Origin: Natranaeroarchaeum sulfidigenes
Lineage (GTDB): Archaea > Halobacteriota > Halobacteria > Halobacteriales > Natronoarchaeaceae
Assembly: GCF_017094485.1 (NCBI RefSeq)
Contig: NZ_CP064786.1
Location: 992,001-1,056,000, forward strand
Length of the DNA stretch: 64,000 nt
Direction of reading: 5' to 3'
Positions 31,833 to 41,620 of this stretch are shown here, piece after piece; position 1 is the first letter of the stretch, and every line of letters starts with the position of its first letter. Made by a program: the position numbers and the translations under genes. The notes below the pieces were generated by a model, which ran no database searches, was not told the DNA's origin, and saw nothing but the letters and a program-made list of their open reading frames with translations.

Positions 31833-32045
31833 ATGCCGGCAAGTATCTACACTTCGCGACGGCTCCAGAAACTCAGCGAGCGTGGGCTCGTGAAGCCGCT
31901 GGGGAACGGCGTGTACGTGATCACCGAGCTGGGCGAGGGCTACCTCGACGGCGAGATCTCGACCTACGAGGACGAACCCGACGAGATCCGGGAGAACGGC
32001 GGGGAAGAGAACAACGACGGCGTTCCGTCGCCGTGGGGTATCTGA
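31833..32045 (+). pseudogene. N-terminally truncated PhiH1-repressor-like winged-helix protein
   Basis: 70 aa from the ATG at 31833. It begins inside the DNA-binding fold: IYTSRRLQKLSERGLVKPLGNGVYVIT corresponds to the recognition helix and wing of PhiH1-like repressors, followed by LGEGYLDGEI. The usual first about 35 residues (W-M-x-x-x-D-x-x-I-L-E-F-L type) are missing. Its 5' end coincides with the left copy of the 19-bp direct repeat (31836-31854). It ends just before an intact paralogue. It may be expressed but cannot have a full wHTH; upstream codons in frame have no family content. Confidence 0.6.
31836..31854 (+). repeat. 19-bp direct repeat, left copy (possible att site)
   Basis: CCGGCAAGTATCTACACTT, exact match to 38178-38196. 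It lies at the left edge of the accessory region and at the truncation point of a repressor gene. The bases on either side differ between copies. Confidence 0.5.
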
Positions 32046-32318
32046 ATGAACCGACAGAGCGCCTCCTGGATGAAACGCGAGGACGAACGGATCCTCGAAT
32101 TTCTCGCGACCGAGGACATGGCCCCGGCGTCACTGATCGCAAACGAGGTCTTTCGGACGGTCTCGCCGGGCCACGTCAGCGAGCGACTGGCGAAGCTCGA
32201 ACACGCCGGGCTGGTCCACCGCGCCGGAATGGATTCGTTCGATCTCACGTCCGAAGGCGAGCGGTATCTCGACGGCGACCTCGACGCCGAGTACCAGCCA
32301 CGCCCGCGCCGGGTGTAA
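32046..32318 (+). CDS. PhiH1-repressor-like winged-helix regulator
   Basis: 90 aa. The complete fold is visible: SWMKREDERILEFLA (helix 1), APASLIANEVF, then VSERLAKLEHAGLVHRAG (recognition helix region) and the wing SFDLTSEGERYLDGDL. Such small repressors are frequent in haloviruses and integrated elements. The gene starts one base after the stop of the truncated paralogue, so the pair look like a tandem duplication of which only this copy is whole. Confidence 0.83.
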   Translation: MNRQSASWMKREDERILEFLATEDMAPASLIANEVFRTVSPGHVSERLAKLEHAGLVHRAGMDSFDLTSEGERYLDGDLDAEYQPRPRRV

Positions 32319-32356
32319 GCGTCGGTACGTGGGCTGGGAGAGAGAAAGAGAGCGCG

Positions 32357-32857
32357 TTATCGATCTTCGACTTCGTACTCGAACAGCGTCGCTGACGTGT
32401 CGGTGTCGGCGCTGTTCCAGATCACACTGATCTCGGTGCCAGGGTCTAACTGTTCTTCATCGCTTTCGTTGTCGAAATTCGCGTTATCATCGGCGATGAA
32501 CCCGCCGTTGTCCGCGGCGATATAGAGCGAACTCTGTGACCGAAGCCCCTCGTCGGAGTCCGACCAGTCGGCACCCGTTTCGCTGACGGTCTCACCGTCA
32601 ACGACGACCGAGATCGTGTCGAGGTCCTCGATCGTGTTCCCACTCATGTGGTACACGCGGACGAACTGATCGTGGTCCCCACCGTACTGTTCGGCATCAA
32701 AGCGCACGTCGGGTGATTCCTCAACGTCGCCCGCGCTCTGGTACAGGTCGATCGCGAAGATGCCGAGTACAGAGGCGAGGATTACGACTATCGCAACTAG
32801 TAGGATTGTTCCGATGACCGATGATTGAGCACAGTCATCTGAGAAAAAGTGTGACAT
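32357..32857 (-). CDS. type IV pilin (archaeal PilA-like)
   Basis: 166 aa. An N-terminal class III signal with a short charged leader (DDCAQSSVIG) is followed by a 25-residue hydrophobic H-domain (TILLVAIVVILASVLGIFAI) for pilus assembly after prepilin-peptidase cleavage. The remainder is an acidic beta-rich head. It diverges from the two neighbouring pilins in both H-domain and head, and its codons are more GC-rich. It is last in a run of three minus-strand pilin genes. Confidence 0.82.
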   Translation of the reverse strand: MSHFFSDDCAQSSVIGTILLVAIVVILASVLGIFAIDLYQSAGDVEESPDVRFDAEQYGGDHDQFVRVYHMSGNTIEDLDTISVVVDGETVSETGADWSDSDEGLRSQSSLYIAADNGGFIADDNANFDNESDEEQLDPGTEISVIWNSADTDTSATLFEYEVEDR

Positions 32858-32889
32858 AATTGGCCGTATGGGAATGGTCAGAGCCCAGT

Positions 32890-33474
32890 CTAATTGACTT
32901 CGTAATCGAACAACACTGATGAATCCCCGCCATCGTCTGACGTCCAGACTACACGTATCGTCTCACCTGATGACAACTCTGTAGCCTCGCTGGGAGAGGT
33001 AATTGAGTCTGCATCGTCATCGTACTGTACAGAGTCTCCCTCTTCTACAGGACCTGCTGAGGGATCATTATCATATAGTACGACAGTAGCGGTACTTCCG
33101 GCGGATATTTCTCCACTAGACCACAGTGCTTCTACACTGTCATCTGTTTCGGGGTCCCCACTAGGCTCAACGCCCCAAGCGGGGTTGCCATCTATTGTGA
33201 TATCAATGTTTGAACTATCAATCGATTGTCCAGATTGGTGTTCAACTTCAACTACAGACAGGGAGGCAAAAGTTGTGTCATCATCATGTGAGAAGTCCTC
33301 TGTCGTTTGCGAGGCATCCCAACTAGCTTGTGGAACCGTTTGCTGTTCATCACCGATACCAATGACAAACGCACCAATTACAGCCGCGAGAATAACCGTT
33401 ATCGCGACCATAAGGATGACACCGATAACCGGAGAAACAGCATTTTCATCAGAGTAAATATCACTGATGTTCAT
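32890..33474 (-). CDS. type IV pilin, AT-rich paralogue
   Basis: 194 aa. It has the canonical haloarchaeal pilin H-domain (AVSPVIGVILMVAITVILAA) at residues about 12-31. The ending ETIRVVWTSDDGGDSS is shared with the next pilin, which supports duplication. The middle of the head is different and encoded with unusually AT-rich codons (for example AGT, ACA, TCT and TTA-type choices), unlike the window average; this suggests import or recombination of the surface-exposed part. It abuts the upstream pilin gene with no spacing. Confidence 0.87.
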   Translation of the reverse strand: MNISDIYSDENAVSPVIGVILMVAITVILAAVIGAFVIGIGDEQQTVPQASWDASQTTEDFSHDDDTTFASLSVVEVEHQSGQSIDSSNIDITIDGNPAWGVEPSGDPETDDSVEALWSSGEISAGSTATVVLYDNDPSAGPVEEGDSVQYDDDADSITSPSEATELSSGETIRVVWTSDDGGDSSVLFDYEVN

Positions 33475-33933
33475 TTATCGAACCTCAAAGTCGTATAGAA
33501 TAGAGGAGTCTCCTCCATCGTCAGACGTCCAGACGACACGGATGGTCTCATCTCCATCAAAGTCATCATCGTCATCAGTTATTGTATAAGTTGATCCTGC
33601 AGATATTGGATCACCGAATGAGTCTGTGGTAACATCCTCAAAGTCGTCCGCTGATTCCCCGTCTACAGTCACATCGACGTTATCTTCTGGAATTGACTCT
33701 CCACTCTCATGCGAGATGTCAATCACTACGTCGTCAGCGTCATCTGCTGTATTCTCTTGACTACTAGAGAAACTTGCCTGGGGAACTGTCTCTTGATCGC
33801 CACCAATACCAATCACGAACGCCCCAATCACAGCCGCGAGAATCACCGTTATCGCGACCATTAGGATGACGCCGATAACCGGCGAAACCGCGCGTTCGTC
33901 GCCGTCCGTTTCGAATACGTTTTTCAGATCCAT
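33475..33933 (-). CDS. type IV pilin
   Basis: 152 aa. A short acidic leader (DLKNVFETDGDER) is followed by the conserved H-domain AVSPVIGVILMVAITVILAA. The head is very acidic and ends with the same ETIRVVWTSDDGGDSS motif as its neighbour. It is the first gene of the three-pilin run, and its promoter lies in the 220 bases shared with the divergent regulator at 34157. The pili would serve adhesion; which pilus machinery uses them cannot be seen here, as no pilB/pilC genes are in the window. Confidence 0.88.
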   Translation of the reverse strand: MDLKNVFETDGDERAVSPVIGVILMVAITVILAAVIGAFVIGIGGDQETVPQASFSSSQENTADDADDVVIDISHESGESIPEDNVDVTVDGESADDFEDVTTDSFGDPISAGSTYTITDDDDDFDGDETIRVVWTSDDGGDSSILYDFEVR

Positions 33934-34119
33934 AGTTTTCTTTGTTGTTTGCGCCGATATTCGGCCAAAGGATTAATATCGAACACCGGAGAGGTGTACG
34001 ATGAGGCAAGGGGGCATTGAACCACTCCTCCTCGCCTTGTCCTTCCGCGTAGTATCGGCGTTACCTTTGGCAATACATTAATCCCTAATAAAGCTTGAGC
34101 CAAATATGATGAACTGTTA

Positions 34120-34140
34120 CGTAATTAACACCTAATTACG
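34120..34140. promoter_or_regulatory. perfect 8-5-8 inverted repeat before the LAGLIDADG-like regulator
   Basis: CGTAATTA and TAATTACG arms separated by ACACC. It ends 16 bases before the ATG at 34157, and a further half-like CGTAATAA follows at 34148. This places it on the core promoter, where the regulator itself or another protein could repress. It is also in the region divergent to the pilin genes. Confidence 0.55.
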
Positions 34141-34156
34141 ATGTACCCGTAATAAA

Positions 34157-34957
34157 ATGACAACTACGCTCTCCCCGAAATCGCTCGCCCGTACCTACGA
34201 CGTTCGGAACCGAGCAGATGGCTGGGACGCCGTCGAGGACTACCAGCGATATCTCGAAGTCGCAGCCCAACATCCAGACAGTGGCTCCAGCGCGCTCTCG
34301 TCGAAACTAGAGATGCCGCGCGGCCGGATTCGCTCGTGGGAAAACGGCTCGAAGCCCGATCCCGCCCGCGCCGTCGAGGTCGCCGAAGAACGCGACTGGT
34401 TCGGCGGCCCCGACACCGACGAGTTCGCGGCGCTGAACCAGCTCGTCGCGTGGATCTTCAGCGGCGGGTCGATCAACGAGCGGGATCACTCGCCGTATTT
34501 CGCGCTGGGTCGGGACGGCGACGCCGAGCGAGTGACCGACGCGCTGGACCAGCTGGGGCTCGACTGGCGACGCGAGCGTGACGATCAGCCCGATCGGGCG
34601 ACCGAGATCGTCCCCACGGAGCACGCCTCAATACTCGGGCGGGCGCTGTCGGTCCTCGGCGCACCGGTCGGCGACAAGAACGACCGCGCCGAGATCTCCC
34701 TGCCGGAGTATCTCGACGACGCCCCAGACGAGATCAGGGCGGACTTCGTCGACGTGTACCTCCGGAACCGGGCCCAAAGTCACGACGACAAGGGAACGCT
34801 GACACTCCGGGAAGAACGCGCCGATCGCTACCTCCAGGAACTCGCGGCGCTCATCGAGGACGTGGCCGGAGAGTCGGTGACGGTCTCGGACAAGAATGTG
34901 ATCGTTTCGGCTGCGGCGGCCAACGCGCTGTACGGGAAGATTGATCGGCCATTCTGA
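34157..34957 (+). CDS. HTH plus degenerate LAGLIDADG-fold regulator (putative)
   Basis: 266 aa. Residues about 45-64 look like a helix-turn-helix (SALSSKLEMPRGRIRSWENG). From about 91 the protein resembles a homing-endonuclease fold: ALNQLVAWIFSGGSI aligns with a LAGLIDADG helix but lacks the catalytic acidic residue. LSVLGAPVGDKNDRAEISLP and YLDDAPDEIRADFVDVYLRN follow the pattern of the second repeat, again without the acid. I infer a domesticated, nuclease-dead DNA-binding protein, by analogy with WhiA. It is divergent from three pilins and about 800 bases before an integrase. Its ATG is 16 bases after an inverted repeat. Confidence 0.6.
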   Translation: MTTTLSPKSLARTYDVRNRADGWDAVEDYQRYLEVAAQHPDSGSSALSSKLEMPRGRIRSWENGSKPDPARAVEVAEERDWFGGPDTDEFAALNQLVAWIFSGGSINERDHSPYFALGRDGDAERVTDALDQLGLDWRRERDDQPDRATEIVPTEHASILGRALSVLGAPVGDKNDRAEISLPEYLDDAPDEIRADFVDVYLRNRAQSHDDKGTLTLREERADRYLQELAALIEDVAGESVTVSDKNVIVSAAAANALYGKIDRPF

Positions 34958-34958
34958 G

Positions 34959-34986
34959 GTGTCCGGACATCTGGAGAAAGTCGGAC
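34959..34986 (+). repeat. imperfect 28-bp direct repeat, copy A
   Basis: Shares 23 of 28 positions with 35641-35668, including the exact block GGAGAAAGTCGGAC. The two copies flank the AT-rich gene at 35088-35546, which may have been inserted between the regulator and the recombinase. Confidence 0.4.
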
Positions 34987-35087
34987 TTTGTAGATCGGCC
35001 CTTACAGATTGTAGAGTAAGATTCTAAAATAGTCTGTAGGTGTTACAAAGCCTCGGCATGTGCCAATTGAATAAATAAATCAGCTAT

Positions 35088-35546
35088 TCATTCGCCCCCT
35101 GCTATCACTTTTGATACTTGCTGCCCCAAGTGCTCTGCGTCCTCTGGTATTTGTATCTGTGTGTTTGATTGCTTAGTCACAATTTCAATCTTAGTTGATT
35201 CATCACCACCAAGTAGGATTATTGCGATCCCGACCAATCCCGCAATTCCAGCAATCAAACCAGGTAATCCCAAACTCCATCCAATAATTCCAACAGCAAT
35301 TATACCAAGTCCAAAGGTTACAACCTCTTCATTCTCTCTAGATGTTTTAACTTTTGATCCCACGACATGCTCTCCAGATATGTTGACTGAATCCACCGAT
35401 TTATTATTCTCGACTGTAGATATTGTGAGTACACGTTCATCAGTGACGACGTACGACTCGTTGTTATCTGCATATTTTCCGCGTACTGTTTCACCATCGG
35501 TAAGATAATCATCTAAGATTTCTTGATGATCATCTGGCAATCCCAT
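35088..35546 (-). CDS. AT-rich PH-like membrane protein, hypothetical
   Basis: 152 aa. The N-terminal part has a PH/GRAM-like strand pattern (YVVTDERVLTISTVEN), followed by a hydrophobic pair of helices (about residues 77-115, Gly/Ile-rich) and a short C-terminal strand region. Codons are far more AT-rich than in neighbouring chromosomal genes, so recent acquisition is likely. It is opposite in direction to its neighbours and flanked by an imperfect 28-bp direct repeat. No function can be assigned. Confidence 0.6.
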   Translation of the reverse strand: MGLPDDHQEILDDYLTDGETVRGKYADNNESYVVTDERVLTISTVENNKSVDSVNISGEHVVGSKVKTSRENEEVVTFGLGIIAVGIIGWSLGLPGLIAGIAGLVGIAIILLGGDESTKIEIVTKQSNTQIQIPEDAEHLGQQVSKVIAGGE

Positions 35547-35640
35547 GGCTATTATCCATAGTTAATAGTTGATAGTCCTACCGTTTCAATGTATATGAAT
35601 GAAGTAGTAAAACAAATATAAGAACTGGCCACCAAAAACA

Positions 35641-35668
35641 GCGTCCGGAAAGTAGGAGAAAGTCGGAC
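35641..35668 (+). repeat. imperfect 28-bp direct repeat, copy B
   Basis: Partner of 34959-34986, located 85 bases before the recombinase gene. It could be a recombinase arm-type site or a scar of insertion. Confidence 0.4.
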
Positions 35669-35752
35669 GGATCCCGCCCCGATCACGCCGGGTACCCCAC
35701 CAAAAACGACATTACCCCCCGCGTTGCCGTCCGGGTTACAGGTTACTCGGAC

Positions 35753-36340
35753 ATGAATCTCAAAGCCCACGCCCAACGCGACGACATGAAGGTCTGGCTC
35801 AGCCAGTCCGAAGTGAACCAACTGATCGACCAGGCGGAGGGCACCCAGCAGCGGATCGCCTTCTCGCTCGGGGCTCGCTGCGGACTCCGCTCTCACGAGG
35901 TCCTCGATGCTGCCCCGGAGCACGTCGTCGACACTGACGCCGGAACGATGCTGCGGGTCTGGCACGGGAAAGGCGACCAGTACCGCGAAACGCCAGTCCC
36001 GCGAGATCTCGCGACGACCATCCGCACGATCGACGACGTGCGCGACCAGAGCGCCAGCTCGTCGCTGCTGGACATCACGTCGACGCGCTCACTTCGGCGC
36101 TGGATTCAGAACGCCGCCGATCGCCTCCAGGACGAAACCGGTGACGAGGGGTGGAACCATCTCGGCTTTCACGATCTCCGGCGGACCTGGGCGACAGCGC
36201 TCGCCAGCGCCGACGTCGACGCCCTACTGGTCTGCGACTGGGGCGGCTGGAACGATCTGGAGACGTTTCTGGAGCACTATCGCGGGACGTACTCGCCGGA
36301 GGCCCAACAGCGAGAACGAGGAAAGGTCGGCTGGCTGTGA
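35753..36340 (+). CDS. compact tyrosine recombinase / integrase
   Basis: 195 aa catalytic domain of the XerC/D-phage integrase family. Catalytic residues are visible in order: R46 (GLRSHE), K73 (HGKGDQYRET), H140 and R143 (HDLRRTW), W163 in the place of the second His (CDWGGW), and nucleophile Y176 (EHYRGTY). The usual N-terminal SAM-like core-binding domain is missing; such single-domain integrases exist in haloarchaea. The GC-rich coding resembles the chromosome. It presumably acts at sites near the island, possibly the 19-bp or 28-bp repeats described here (inference). Confidence 0.88.
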   Translation: MNLKAHAQRDDMKVWLSQSEVNQLIDQAEGTQQRIAFSLGARCGLRSHEVLDAAPEHVVDTDAGTMLRVWHGKGDQYRETPVPRDLATTIRTIDDVRDQSASSSLLDITSTRSLRRWIQNAADRLQDETGDEGWNHLGFHDLRRTWATALASADVDALLVCDWGGWNDLETFLEHYRGTYSPEAQQRERGKVGWL

Positions 36341-36341
36341 T

Positions 36342-36833
36342 CTACAATAGTATAAACAGGCCAACAGACGCACCCATCACTACCACTAAAACAAATATCC
36401 CGATCACTACCCAGGGCTGTATCCCGTCTTCCTCATCACTGTCGATATTTCGCGTCCGGTTCGCCAACGAATCAGGCTCAGGAGAGTTGTCGACCACTAC
36501 TTCCGGTCCATCAGTCTGATCTATATCTGCCAGCTCCAGTCGACAATCTGGACAGTATGTCCGACTGGCGTCAATCGTCTCACCACAGCCTTCGCAGTCG
36601 GTTGTGTCTCGTTCCTCTCGTCGATCCACAGTCTGCCCCTCATCGGAGGATACACGCTGATGAGCTGCCTCTCCGTCGAAGTCCCTGAGCTCTGGCCCAA
36701 GCGTCTTTGCACTGCCGAGATATACGCAGTTGTGCCGTTCCGGCAACTGATGTTTATTACAGAACGTCCCATCGCAGTATCGACATGAGTAGTCGAACGA
36801 GGACGTTTCGCCGCAGATATCGCACGCAGCCAT
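36342..36833 (-). CDS. AN1-type zinc finger membrane protein
   Basis: 163 aa. An N-terminal AN1-like finger (CDICGETSSFDYSCRYCDGTFCNKH, with HNC following at about residue 34) is followed by a zinc ribbon (CEGCGETIDASRTYCPDC, about residues 80-97). After an acidic linker there is a single C-terminal transmembrane helix (VVIGIFVLVVVMGASVGLFIL). It is tail-anchored with the zinc domains in the cytoplasm. It is convergent with the integrase, with their stop codons adjacent. Role unknown. Confidence 0.72.
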   Translation of the reverse strand: MAACDICGETSSFDYSCRYCDGTFCNKHQLPERHNCVYLGSAKTLGPELRDFDGEAAHQRVSSDEGQTVDRREERDTTDCEGCGETIDASRTYCPDCRLELADIDQTDGPEVVVDNSPEPDSLANRTRNIDSDEEDGIQPWVVIGIFVLVVVMGASVGLFILL

Positions 36834-36953
36834 TACTGTTCGAATTTAGAACATTTTTGTAAATAACTTCCCCTCAAAGGGTCCACGATATACTACTTTC
36901 TACTCTCATCTTTCTAGAAGTAGCTTCAAGTATTTTCCAGATAACTCTCTGAC

Positions 36954-37262
36954 ATGAGCAATTGGAAACTCAAGCTGGAAACGCTGTGGATACGATTCCG
37001 GACAATTCTCTGGGTCGTGTTTTTATTTTCGTGTATAGGTGCTGTTCTCTTTGGGTTCTATCTGATAGCTCTGGGTCTTCAGTATGAGATCGCATTCGAG
37101 CTTACGGTTCTGGGAATAGAATTCACCCCCACAGAAGTCGGTGATATAATGCTGTATGCCGATGGTCAAGTAGCAATAGCAGGCACTGTTCTTGTCGTTG
37201 TATTCATCGGTATCGTGGCCAAGTTGACTGGTGGATTTAGCTCCCGTCCATTCTGGGTCTGA
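36954..37262 (+). CDS. hypothetical membrane protein, AT-rich
   Basis: 102 aa with two or three hydrophobic segments (ILWVVFLFSCIGAVLFGFYLIALGL at about 19-43; VAIAGTVLVVVFIGIVAKLTGG at about 73-94). Codons are AT-rich and no family was recognised. Its 3' end overlaps a gene fragment on the other strand by 26 bases. Part of the accessory region. Confidence 0.5.
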   Translation: MSNWKLKLETLWIRFRTILWVVFLFSCIGAVLFGFYLIALGLQYEIAFELTVLGIEFTPTEVGDIMLYADGQVAIAGTVLVVVFIGIVAKLTGGFSSRPFWV

Positions 37263-37371
37263 TTTCTTGCCCAGTACTGAATCGGACCTGCAAATCTTCG
37301 ACAACTTCGACGGTCCACTTCCCCGGCCCCTCGCGCTGGCGATACGCGAGTTGTTCCCGTTGTGATCTCAT
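37237..37371 (-). pseudogene. fragment of a small haloarchaeal protein (copy 1)
   Basis: 44-codon open frame starting MRSQREQLAYRQREGPGKW and continuing TVEVVEDL, followed by unrelated residues. The REGPGKWTVEVVE block is shared with the fragment at 37797-37964. It seems to be the C-terminal part of a small AbrB/DUF8053-like protein (family from memory, uncertain) joined to foreign sequence. Confidence 0.45.
37305..37332 (+). repeat. 28-bp repeat, copy 1 (27/28 identical to 37814-37841)
   Basis: It encodes, on the minus strand, the shared EGPGKWTVEV block of two gene fragments. The pair points to duplication of the same small gene end within 510 bases. Confidence 0.7.
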
Positions 37372-37755
37372 TCAGCGATGTTTCGAGTAGTATTCCCTCT
37401 TCGAATAGATGTACCAGAGGATCCCGAAATGATAGACTAACCCGAGTATGCTGAAATCGACGAGACTCAGGACCCCGCCGATCAGGAACAAGACGGACGA
37501 AAGGCTCCACGCCCACGGCTCTACTTTCCAGAGTCCATAGAGAGCGACGTACATTGCGATCATGTAGACTGTGGCCCCGATCAACGCGACGACCAAGAGA
37601 CCCCCGAGTCCAATGACTTCGGTTGTGGGGCGTGATGCCTCCCGTAAAAAGTGGGAATACGTTTCATCCCCTATGTGCAGAAGAAACGGCAACATCAGCA
37701 CGTAAAACACGCACAGTACCGTGATACCACGGGGTCTGGACCTGGAGGGCGGCAT
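37372..37755 (-). CDS. hypothetical membrane protein
   Basis: 127 aa with about four hydrophobic helices: ITVLCVFYVLMLPFLLHIG, VIGLGGLLVVALIGATVYM, a WAWSLSSVLFLIGGVLSLV segment and a C-terminal one. Starts MPPSRSRPRG. No known family. It lies between the two fragments that carry the 28-bp repeat, so it may have come in with, or disrupted, that older gene. Confidence 0.52.
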   Translation of the reverse strand: MPPSRSRPRGITVLCVFYVLMLPFLLHIGDETYSHFLREASRPTTEVIGLGGLLVVALIGATVYMIAMYVALYGLWKVEPWAWSLSSVLFLIGGVLSLVDFSILGLVYHFGILWYIYSKREYYSKHR

Positions 37756-37796
37756 TAGTCGGAGTTCAGACTGGACGAAAATAATACTGTTGCTGC

Positions 37797-37964
37797 TTAC
37801 AGACCCTCGACGACTTCAACGGTCCACTTCCCCGGCCCCTCCCGCCGGATATGCGCGTGCTGTTCGCCGTCGATCTCGCCGTCTTCGTTGATCAGCCCGT
37901 CGAGTCGGAGGTCGTCTTTCGGGATCGCTAACCGAGACCGCGACCCCGGCGGCGCTCCCGCGGC
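37797..37964 (-). pseudogene. 5'-truncated fragment of a small haloarchaeal protein (copy 2)
   Basis: 55 open codons, no usable start codon after the in-frame TGA at 37965-37967. Reads SRLAIPKDDLRLDGLINEDG, then EQHAHIRREGPGKWTVEVVE and ends GL. It resembles the small AbrB-like proteins of the DUF8053 type seen in haloarchaea (from memory). It overlaps the end of the zinc-ribbon frame in another phase, as if a deletion had fused two neighbouring genes. Confidence 0.5.
37814..37841 (+). repeat. 28-bp repeat, copy 2
   Basis: Partner of 37305-37332, with one mismatch. Confidence 0.7.
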
Positions 37965-38109
37965 TCAGTCGGCGGCTGGTATCGCACTCTGGACAGCGGT
38001 GGGCGACGTGATCCTCGTCGCCGAACACCCGCCGGAAATCCTCTGAGACGTGGGCTCCACAGTTCCGGCAGGTGGCGGACTCGTCGCTCTCGGTGACGAG
38101 TTTCAACAC
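37816..38109 (-). pseudogene. zinc-ribbon protein gene (DUF7563-like) with a foreign 3' end
   Basis: From a GTG at 38109 the frame reads MLKLVTESDESATCRNCGAH, then VSEDFRRVFGDEDHVAHRCPEC, the pattern of small haloarchaeal zinc-ribbon proteins often linked with plasmids and viruses. After RLSRGSAAG the frame runs into codons belonging to another gene in another phase and becomes Arg-rich, which is unlike haloarchaeal proteins. I read it as an intact 5' part joined to a fragment. The upstream stretch to 38184 is probably untranslated. Confidence 0.5.
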
Positions 38110-38177
38110 GCCGACCACCCCCTTGTTTTGCGGCTGTTCGGGCGGTCTATAGCGCCAGTATTCGACCCATCCGAGTA

Positions 38178-38196
38178 CCGGCAAGTATCTACACTT
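38178..38196 (+). repeat. 19-bp direct repeat, right copy, within a perfect palindrome
   Basis: Identical to 31836-31854. Here it extends to a 7-6-7 inverted repeat, GGCAAGT-ATCTAC-ACTTGCC (38180-38199). It is 80 bases from the tRNA-Pro 3' end. Confidence 0.5.
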
Positions 38197-38275
38197 GCCA
38201 GCAAAGTAATAATGGCGATTTCAGGCGGTAGGCCTACCTGAGGCTGCCGACAATGACGTTTTTCAGAAAATGTAG

Positions 38276-38346
38276 TGGGACCGCCGAGAATTGAACTCGG
38301 GTCCTACGGACCCCATCCGCAGAGGATACCACTACCCCACGGTCCC
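38276..38346 (-). tRNA. tRNA-Pro (anticodon GGG)
   Basis: 71 bases on the minus strand fold as a cloverleaf. The acceptor GGGACCG pairs with CGGTCCC, with discriminator A. The D stem is GGGT/ATCC, the anticodon stem TGCGG/CCGTA with loop ATGGGGT giving anticodon GGG, and the T stem CCGAG/CTCGG with loop TTCAATT. CCA is not encoded. No intron. Its 3' end faces the accessory island. Confidence 0.93.
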
Positions 38347-38483: not shown

Positions 38484-40811
38484 ATGACGATCGGACTCGA
38501 TATCGACGACCGATTTACTGTCGTCGCGCGGGACGGTACAGCCCCGACGACAGAGCGGACGAACTTCGTCGAGCTACCGGACGATGAGATGGTGCTTGAT
38601 ATGCTGTCCAGCGGGGAGATTGAGTATGTCGAGCGCGACGGCGCGGTGTATGCAGTCGGCGATGCCGCGACCGACTTCGCGGGGATGTTCGACGCGCCAG
38701 TCGAATCATTGCTACGGGGCGGCATCCTGACCGGTGAGCGCGACGTCGACGCCGTGCTGGCCGAACGACTGATCAAGCAGGTCCTTGGAGCGGCCGAGGG
38801 CGAAGAGCGTGTGGTGTTCGCCGCGCCGTCCGAGCCGGTCGACCGGAACGTCGACATGCTGTTTCACCGCCGGACGATCCACGATCAACTGGCAGCGCTT
38901 GGCTACGAATCGGAGTCGATCACGCGCGCCAGCGCAGTAGGTTACGCAGGACTCGGCACTGACGCGCCGACCGGAGTAGCGGTGGTGCTTGGCACCGGGA
39001 CGAGCGAGGCCTGTTTGCTCGACGGTGGGCGTCCAATCGTTCAGTTCGGCCTGGGTCGCGGCGGCAGCTGGATCGACCGACAGGTCGCCGATGCGACCGA
39101 TCGTGATCCTAGCATGGTCGCCGACGAACGCGAGACGTACGATCTCACGGCCGGCGACGGCGACGTTCTCGGGATGTACTACGAGAACTTCCTCTCGTAC
39201 GTCGTGGACGCGGTGGTCGAGCACACCGAGATTGACGGTGCGGCGCTGCCGGTCGTCGTTGCGGGTCCGGCGGCCCGACCAGCGGGCATCGGTGAGACGC
39301 TTTCCGAACTTCTCACCGAGGCCGATTCGTCATTCGCAATCGAGGATATCCACGTCCTCGACGATCCGGTGACTGCGGTCGCCCGCGGGGCTCGACTTGC
39401 GCCGGATGTCGAGCGATCGTCCGTGGAGACGGCCACAGCTGTCGAGTCGGGGAGCGCCAGCGAGGGGTCGACAACTCGGTCGGGCCAAGAGCCCGGCGAA
39501 TTAGAAGTCGACAGATCGGACAGCAATCAAGCAGAGAACTCCGTCAAATCCGACCTCACCACGACAGTCGAAGCCCTCGACGAACGCATCGCGGACCTCC
39601 GCGAGTGCGTCGACACGTGGTCTGACCAGACCGCGATGTCTGATCTCGACGAGGCGGTCGACGGACTTGACGCCCGGGTCGCCGAGATAGAAGATGTGGA
39701 GCCCGCATCCCTGTCTTCGGAACTCAATGCGGTAGCCGACGATGTCGAGCATCTTCGAGAGCGCCTCGACGATCACGCAGAGCGACAGCAGTCCCTCGAC
39801 AGTCGACTCGACGATACACCTGACAGCGACCTCGACGAAACCGTTGCAGATCTCGACGACGCGCTGTCGGCGCTTCGCGAGGAGGTCGACGGAATACGCT
39901 CACGAATCGAAGAGCTCGAAGCCGACGTGGCCGAGCCTGCAGACGAACTCCTCGATCGGATCGATGATATCGAGGCGACGCTCGACTCATGGGACGATCT
40001 GCGCTCGCAGGTAGCAGCACTCGACCAGACAGTTGTGACTACCGGAGACGACCTCGACAGCGCCGTCGAGCGGATCGAGGAACTCGAAACGCTCCTTGAG
40101 GACATCGAAACGCGAACGGATACCACGATCGATCGGATCGATGGGATCGGCTCTCGGCTCGACGTCGTTGAAGCCGACACCGACACGGTACGCGAACGGC
40201 TCTCGGAGATCGAGTCCCGGATCGGGAGCATCGAGCAGGAGGCGCCGTCAACCGACGGTCGCGTCGACGATCTCAACGAGACTGTCGACGAACAGGCTGG
40301 ACGAATTGCGGCAGTGGAGTCGTCGAACGAAGCGATAGACGAGCGCATCGAGTCGGTAGAGGAGTCAGTCGCGGCCGTCAAGGAGCTCTCAGACTCCCTC
40401 GACGACACTAGCGAACGACTTGACTCGCTCCAGACCTCGCTCGGGGAGGTGGACCGGCGGATCACGAAGCTGGAGACAGTCGACGAGCGTGTCGGTGAAC
40501 TGGAGGGCACACTCGACGAGATGGAAACTCAATGCGACGACGATGTCGATGCACTTCGGTCTGACCTGAACGAGTTACAGTTACAGGTCGAGTCGGTGAC
40601 CGACGTGGATGACGGCCCGAGCGAGGACGAAGTCCGTGAGATCGCTAGCGATGTCGCTCACGAGCGCGTGCTCGCTCCTGCTCTCGGAGGTGCTGGGGCG
40701 TTCGGTCTTCTCGCCGCTGGCGGCGCAGCCATAGCTGACGCGCTCGTGCTGGCAGCCGTATTTGGGGCACTGGCGATCGTCTGTTTCGGCGGTCTCGTGA
40801 TTGCACGGTAA
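38484..40811 (+). CDS. actin-fold ATPase fused to a long coiled coil and C-terminal membrane hairpin
   Basis: 775 aa. Residues 1-305 follow the actin/MreB/ParM plan: phosphate-1 hairpin GLDIDDRFTVVARDG, phosphate-2 motif GVAVVLGTGTSEACLLDGG (about 164-182), adenosine motif VVVAGPAARPAGIGETL (about 257-273), and DPVTAVARGARL before the end. A Ser/Glu-rich linker (306-355) leads to about 380 residues of acidic heptad repeats (DERIADLRECVDTW and many similar), then two hydrophobic helices at about 735-775. I infer a membrane-anchored cytoskeletal or scaffold ATPase. I know no named family with this layout; a relation to the haloarchaeal actin homologue salactin is possible but unverified. It stands alone, divergent from tRNA-Pro. 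Confidence 0.75.
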   Translation: MTIGLDIDDRFTVVARDGTAPTTERTNFVELPDDEMVLDMLSSGEIEYVERDGAVYAVGDAATDFAGMFDAPVESLLRGGILTGERDVDAVLAERLIKQVLGAAEGEERVVFAAPSEPVDRNVDMLFHRRTIHDQLAALGYESESITRASAVGYAGLGTDAPTGVAVVLGTGTSEACLLDGGRPIVQFGLGRGGSWIDRQVADATDRDPSMVADERETYDLTAGDGDVLGMYYENFLSYVVDAVVEHTEIDGAALPVVVAGPAARPAGIGETLSELLTEADSSFAIEDIHVLDDPVTAVARGARLAPDVERSSVETATAVESGSASEGSTTRSGQEPGELEVDRSDSNQAENSVKSDLTTTVEALDERIADLRECVDTWSDQTAMSDLDEAVDGLDARVAEIEDVEPASLSSELNAVADDVEHLRERLDDHAERQQSLDSRLDDTPDSDLDETVADLDDALSALREEVDGIRSRIEELEADVAEPADELLDRIDDIEATLDSWDDLRSQVAALDQTVVTTGDDLDSAVERIEELETLLEDIETRTDTTIDRIDGIGSRLDVVEADTDTVRERLSEIESRIGSIEQEAPSTDGRVDDLNETVDEQAGRIAAVESSNEAIDERIESVEESVAAVKELSDSLDDTSERLDSLQTSLGEVDRRITKLETVDERVGELEGTLDEMETQCDDDVDALRSDLNELQLQVESVTDVDDGPSEDEVREIASDVAHERVLAPALGGAGAFGLLAAGGAAIADALVLAAVFGALAIVCFGGLVIAR

Positions 40812-41089: not shown

Positions 41090-41620
41090 TCAGGCGACGA
41101 GTTGCTCTTCGCCACGCTCGACGACGATCCGGCACGGCGGCGAGAGCTTGTTGTAGGACCGTCGGAAGGCTTCTTTGACCTCGGCGGCCTGATCGACGTC
41201 ACACCAGGCGGTGAAGATGCGGTCCCCCTCGGGAATCCGGGCGGCGGTCCCCACGATCTTGCCGAACGACTGGCGCATCCCGTCGGAGACACGGTCGGCT
41301 CCTGCGCCGGTTGCCTGTTTGTTCTCACGCAGGACCTGGTGAGGGAACTTCCGCAGGGTCATCTTGTAGTTGCCCTCGCCGAACTCCTTGATGAGGTGGC
41401 GATTCGCGGACAGACGGGCACTTTCGAGCGCGCCGTGGCGGAGCTGGACGGCTTCCTCGGTGACCAGACTGATCTGGACGGGGTAGTCATCGGGATCGGC
41501 CTGCAGGTCGCCCATCTGATGCTGAGCGATCTTCGAGCCGGGAATGCCCCCCATATACTCGCGGCGCGTGTAGGAGGGCTTGTCTATCTGCCGATACATA
41601 GAGGCGGGTTTCTCGGACAT
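41090..41620 (-). CDS. rpl10e: large ribosomal subunit protein L10e (L16 family)
   Basis: 176 aa. It binds near the A-site of the 50S subunit. Typical archaeal L10e stretches: [15 protein letters not shown] (residues about 17-31), [29 protein letters not shown] and [15 protein letters not shown]. Length normal. It is monocistronic, with a short spacer to the uridine phosphorylase gene on the same strand upstream. Confidence 0.97.

Follow-up and report, generated by a model that had tools for sequence, protein, structure and literature searches.

We found that one gene in the window, the 64,000-nucleotide stretch of DNA analysed here, encodes a long and divergent paralogue of volactin, an already named haloarchaeal actin. 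The earlier note had described an actin-like domain, a long coiled coil and a hydrophobic C-terminus in one chain, and all three are indeed combined in this 775-residue protein. The reading we prefer, with a probability of roughly 0.4, is that this ancient volactin duplicate serves as a membrane-anchored, non-hydrolysing actin-related protein with a role directed at volactin.

The gene is a single open reading frame with an ATG start (38484..40811, forward strand), recognised as a long volactin paralogue from the reading frame and from orthologues in two genomes of the same family. It stands alone on its strand, as previously noted, with tRNA-Pro upstream (38275-38346) and rpl10e downstream (41090-41620), both on the opposite strand. 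The further claim that context implies no partner did not survive a look at the whole genome, which implies a possible partner: in the sample, each genome with the long form has canonical volactin as well. The two genes are not adjacent, and no shared gene neighbour of the long form and canonical volactin was found. Recurrent neighbours of the long form in Natrialbaceae (a probable PEP carboxykinase, an MFS transporter and the rpl11/rpl1 region, named from a reading of their sequences) differ from those in the window, so that no neighbour is common to different families, and the neighbourhood comparison found none conserved between families of long forms.

The L10e gene is present twice in this genome, in the window (41090-41620, reverse strand) and at G000:C1:723376-723903 (forward strand). 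The two proteins are identical, and the DNA is 98.9% identical across 549 bp, a match that hardly extends beyond the gene body. Genome G242 also has paired L10e genes (98% DNA identity between copies, 87% protein identity to that of the window), and genomes of genus g2 have one copy at most; this pattern suggests that gene conversion may keep the copies alike. Upstream of the long gene, GC content is 0.53-0.55 from 32 to 38 kb, within a stretch (31836-38196) that encodes a tyrosine recombinase (PF00589; 35753-36340) and is flanked, near tRNA-Pro, by two identical 19-nt copies of CCGGCAAGTATCTACACTT in direct orientation (31836 and 38178). This stretch is a candidate 6.3-kb integrated element, and the corresponding interval is ~4.7 kb shorter in G140. 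The 3' end of tRNA-Pro was considered as its attachment site and discarded, as no second copy was found within the window.

Residues 1-306 (38484..39401, forward strand) form the actin-fold head, a volactin domain identified by PF25216 and by a domain model with PDB matches. The match to PF25216 scored 208.9 bits (E 1.8e-61), with family membership assigned at 206-209 bits against a curated cut-off of 35 and over positions 1-320 of the 321 in the Pfam model. An AlphaFold model of the head, for which the alignment input was 47 canonical volactin domains, had a pLDDT of 79.6 and a pTM of 0.80. Among the matches listed, its best PDB chains were MamK (Z 23.3), BeeR (22.6), MreB (21.5), crenactin (21.2) and actin (20.7), and MamK superposed with an rmsd of 3.3 over 284 residues. 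Matches to MamK, MreB and actin span 270-285 residues, corresponding to the whole-domain actin fold, and Foldseek agreed on this fold (E 4e-13). The earlier note had anticipated an actin fold and had named a non-actin match as the result that would speak against it; neither FtsA nor a sugar kinase occurred among the 50 structural matches listed. At the level of sequence, a phmmer search of PDB with the head gave no match, and a profile of long heads gave two chance-like matches only.

The head is followed by an acidic, low-confidence linker (residues 307-343; 39402..39512, forward strand; pLDDT below 50 across most of its length) and by a coiled coil (residues 344-706; 39513..40601, forward strand), which is supported by a model helix, a heptad period and coiled-coil Pfam matches. 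The hydrophobic periodicity of the core is 3.5, at 21.7 sd above shuffles, and the full-length model, with modest confidence, makes residues 344-706 helical almost throughout, broken briefly at five places. The long coiled coil first proposed was thus recovered, and the outcome named as its refutation, a prediction with no coil, did not occur. Residues 727-774 (40662..40805, forward strand) represent a putative membrane anchor, either a hairpin or a single pass, delimited by hydropathy and by a Gly/Ala-rich tail that is conserved across relatives. Hydropathy marks one hydrophobic stretch at 729-775, whose 47 residues are long enough for two passes, and the full-length model places two helices in this region (714-735 and 747-774) at low pLDDT. 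Of the C-terminal membrane hairpin suggested earlier, the hydrophobic stretch was therefore retained, while the two helices are modelled at low pLDDT only and a single pass may apply instead.

The window protein had also been credited with the complete complement of actin-like nucleotide motifs, a claim that was contradicted when 107 distinct canonical volactins were compared with 44 distinct long heads. The phosphate-1 loop (residues 4-11; 38493..38516, forward strand) reads GLDIDDRF rather than the canonical GLDVGTMN, replacing Gly-Thr with Asp-Asp, and the adenosine loop (residues 256-266; 39249..39281, forward strand) reads PVVVAGPAARP rather than PVVVTGGTSSP, replacing Thr-Gly-Gly with Ala-Gly-Pro. 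Arg148 (38925..38927, forward strand) stands where canonical volactins have the catalytic Glu of their NEG motif, as placed by motif alignment and by the DnaK NEP register, so that the invariant canonical motifs GTMN, NEG and TGG have become DDRF, TRA and AGP. Asp6 is retained, as are the glycines of the phosphate-2 loop (residues 166-175; 38979..39008, forward strand), where AVVLGTGTSE aligns with canonical GISFGAGMTN; the absence of an Asp from this loop is uninformative because canonical volactin already has Ser where MreB and DnaK have this Asp. The Glu of the INEGMAVIY motif is present in 107 of 107 canonical volactins and in 0 of 44 long forms, which carry Arg (14), Lys (14), Thr (10), Gln (5) or Pro (1) at this position. 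Volactin NEG is in register with DnaK NEP, in a comparison that scores poorly yet keeps all three motifs in register, and we take its Glu to be the catalytic Glu/Gln position of the actin superfamily. Judged by these motifs, the window protein, with Arg148 in place of a catalytic Glu or Gln, is not an intact actin ATPase, and hydrolysis has likely been lost in the long forms.

Other changes in the pocket are less uniform. The phosphate-1 Thr is retained in 10 of 44 long forms, the change of phosphate-1 Gly to Asp is restricted to the window's family (3/44), and in this family adenosine TGG has become AGP, AGS or AGD. We considered whether pocket residues had been lost preferentially and found no support for this, with retention in the window's family at 0.39, compared to 0.43 for other canonical-invariant residues (random P 0.45). 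Given that the pocket was not lost faster and that Natrialbaceae long forms retain the phosphate-1 Asp and Gly, nucleotide binding may persist.

Long forms are not restricted to the window. The same genome has a second PF25216 gene, an ordinary canonical volactin of 350 aa (458 bits) that shares 33% identity with the window head; the window protein itself, at 775 aa with a coil and a hydrophobic tail, lies well outside the canonical size of ~330-375 aa. Two orthologues occur in its own family, of 795 aa (L074:8176-10563, reverse strand) and 841 aa (L073:8099-10624, reverse strand), with heads 86% and 53% identical to that of the window, and the long gene was present in three of nine genomes of this family. 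Second PF25216 matches in other families are also long (eleven extracted loci, with frames of 830-1133 aa), and in the extracted frames examined, head, coil and a Gly/Ala-rich hydrophobic tail follow one another as in the window protein. When 292 genomes of the class were searched with a profile built from long heads, the long form was detected in ~58 of them, 53 in f4 (Natrialbaceae), 3 in f1 and 2 in f10, the families being Natrialbaceae, the window's own and one further family; six of these genomes (G135, G061, G203, G213, G214 and G238) were counted from the second match alone, with frames unread. The search of haloarchaea for the same three-part layout, which the earlier note had advised, was therefore productive, and an orphan gene of one family is ruled out. 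A single-protein scan of genome contigs detected no relatives; the whole-genome search did. No long form was seen in the f3 (Haloarcula and kin) or f5 (Halorubrum and kin) genomes of the 292-genome sample. Canonical volactin exceeded the cut-off in 175 of the 292 genomes, including all ~58 with a long form, which in this sample never occurred without it, although shared ancestry, mostly within Natrialbaceae, weakens this co-occurrence. One canonical copy, on a 13-kb contig of G105 (L114; G105:C4:12433-13349), is split into two frames, and this genome has intact volactin copies on other contigs.

Phylogenetic trees indicated the same division. In a tree rooted with short volactins from outside haloarchaea, the 17 long forms sampled grouped in a single clade (99/96) whose sister is haloarchaeal canonical volactin (93/84), and an unrooted tree of 68 rows had the same split between long and canonical forms. 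The short volactins with intact motifs, found in the same phylum but outside haloarchaea (L236-L241, from G344, G297, G313, G315, G298 and G295), indicate that volactin is older than haloarchaea, and since these six read GTMN, DEG and GG, the intact motif set is ancestral. Most parsimoniously, a single duplication at the haloarchaeal base would have come with one acquisition of coil and tail and one disappearance of the Glu, and the gene would then have been lost repeatedly. We regard a single origin as likely but short of proof, as long branches join in both trees; independent fusions in separate families are not favoured, with one clade in the trees, though several long branches meet there. 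Comparison of the window with its sister species gave dN/dS values of 0.22 (head), 0.35 (linker and coil) and 0.30 (last 61 residues), where canonical volactin gave 0.05. All three parts are thus under purifying selection, yet far freer to change than the canonical parent.

In Haloferax, volactin-GFP filaments cross the cytoplasm and make contact with the membrane solely at their tips, and as yet unnamed volactin-binding factors have been proposed (PMC10869688). In its anatomy the long form matches what would be expected of a tip anchor, cap or nucleator. The hydrophobic tail would be embedded in the cell membrane, and the coiled coil would probably dimerise and extend into the cytoplasm, where its 363 residues would reach ~54 nm as one continuous helix (0.15 nm per residue). 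The head, without turning over ATP, could then bind the end or side of canonical volactin filaments as a tether, cap or nucleator. Such a role would not be general: another study gives volactin as the sole identified actin homologue of Haloferax (PMC7617734), so that the long form is not a universal anchor, and the lack of long forms in the f5 sample, together with tip attachment in Haloferax, shows that tips can attach without it.

Eukaryotic actin-related proteins are the best-known non-hydrolysing actin paralogues. A bolder version of our reading, which we consider unlikely, is that the long forms are their prokaryotic counterpart, a pseudo-actin clade from one duplication at the haloarchaeal base that would cap or nucleate volactin and fix its tips to the membrane via a coiled-coil tether.

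The strongest competitor, doubtful but credible, is that the head serves as an adaptor for some other protein or ligand, tethered to the membrane by its coil and tail, with no tie to volactin. Actin-fold adaptors on membrane complexes do exist: in GspL and PilM-PilN, an actin-fold domain is joined or bound to a membrane segment, in this case in secretion or pilus machines and lacking a very long coiled coil. Fast, partly relaxed evolution of the head, and the absence of a gene neighbour common to volactin or between families, would fit such an adaptor. However, in the sample no long form occurred without canonical volactin, and no conserved neighbour points to another partner.

A cytoskeleton or scaffold tethered to the membrane had been the original proposal; with the protein polymerising through its own head and without volactin, it keeps some probability as quite an unlikely alternative and is no longer the leading reading. 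The head is closest in fold, among the matches listed, to the filament formers MamK, BeeR and MreB, it shares a chain with a coil and hydrophobic tail, and actin-fold polymerisation does not strictly require hydrolysis. However, the catalytic Glu is gone in 44 of 44 long forms, the phosphate-1 and adenosine loops are altered in the window's family, and the head has diverged at a much higher rate than canonical volactin, as seen in dN/dS and in long branches. MreB and MamK, unlike the long form, are single-domain and catalytically competent. MreB binds the membrane by itself or through RodZ. MamK has separate coiled-coil proteins as partners (PMC12748827), whereas the long form has the coil in its own chain, and crenactin with arcadin-4, an archaeal actin with an SMC-like coiled-coil protein (PMC10869688), likewise comprises two proteins rather than one. 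Finally, a decaying or functionless duplicate, suggested by the degenerate nucleotide-pocket motifs, is rejected as highly improbable by dN/dS of 0.22-0.35 in all three parts and by intact long frames in dozens of genomes.

Volactin and salactin are already known, and the Pfam volactin model covers the long heads. Canonical volactin (HVO_2015, PF25216; PMC10869688) is homologous to the head over its full length and has the same actin fold, with ~340-360 aa, a short acidic tail and intact Gly-Thr, Glu and Gly-Gly; the long form differs in its added coil and hydrophobic tail and in the loss of the catalytic Glu. Canonical volactin forms dynamic filaments in Haloferax, as described in the same report. 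Salactin is likewise a haloarchaeal actin-fold protein, set apart by description as a separate family: its N-terminal tail is charged and disordered, its filaments grow from the poles, and the passages surveyed describe no coiled coil or membrane segment (PMC10746226). Within the open-access passages surveyed, no long, coiled-coil or membrane-anchored form of volactin is described. Volactin tips have been reported at the membrane with no anchor named, and the long gene would provide a concrete candidate that can be deleted and is present in many culturable Natrialbaceae. If our reading holds, it would also represent a case of an archaeal actin that gained a paralogue which does not hydrolyse ATP and carries its own tether in the same chain.
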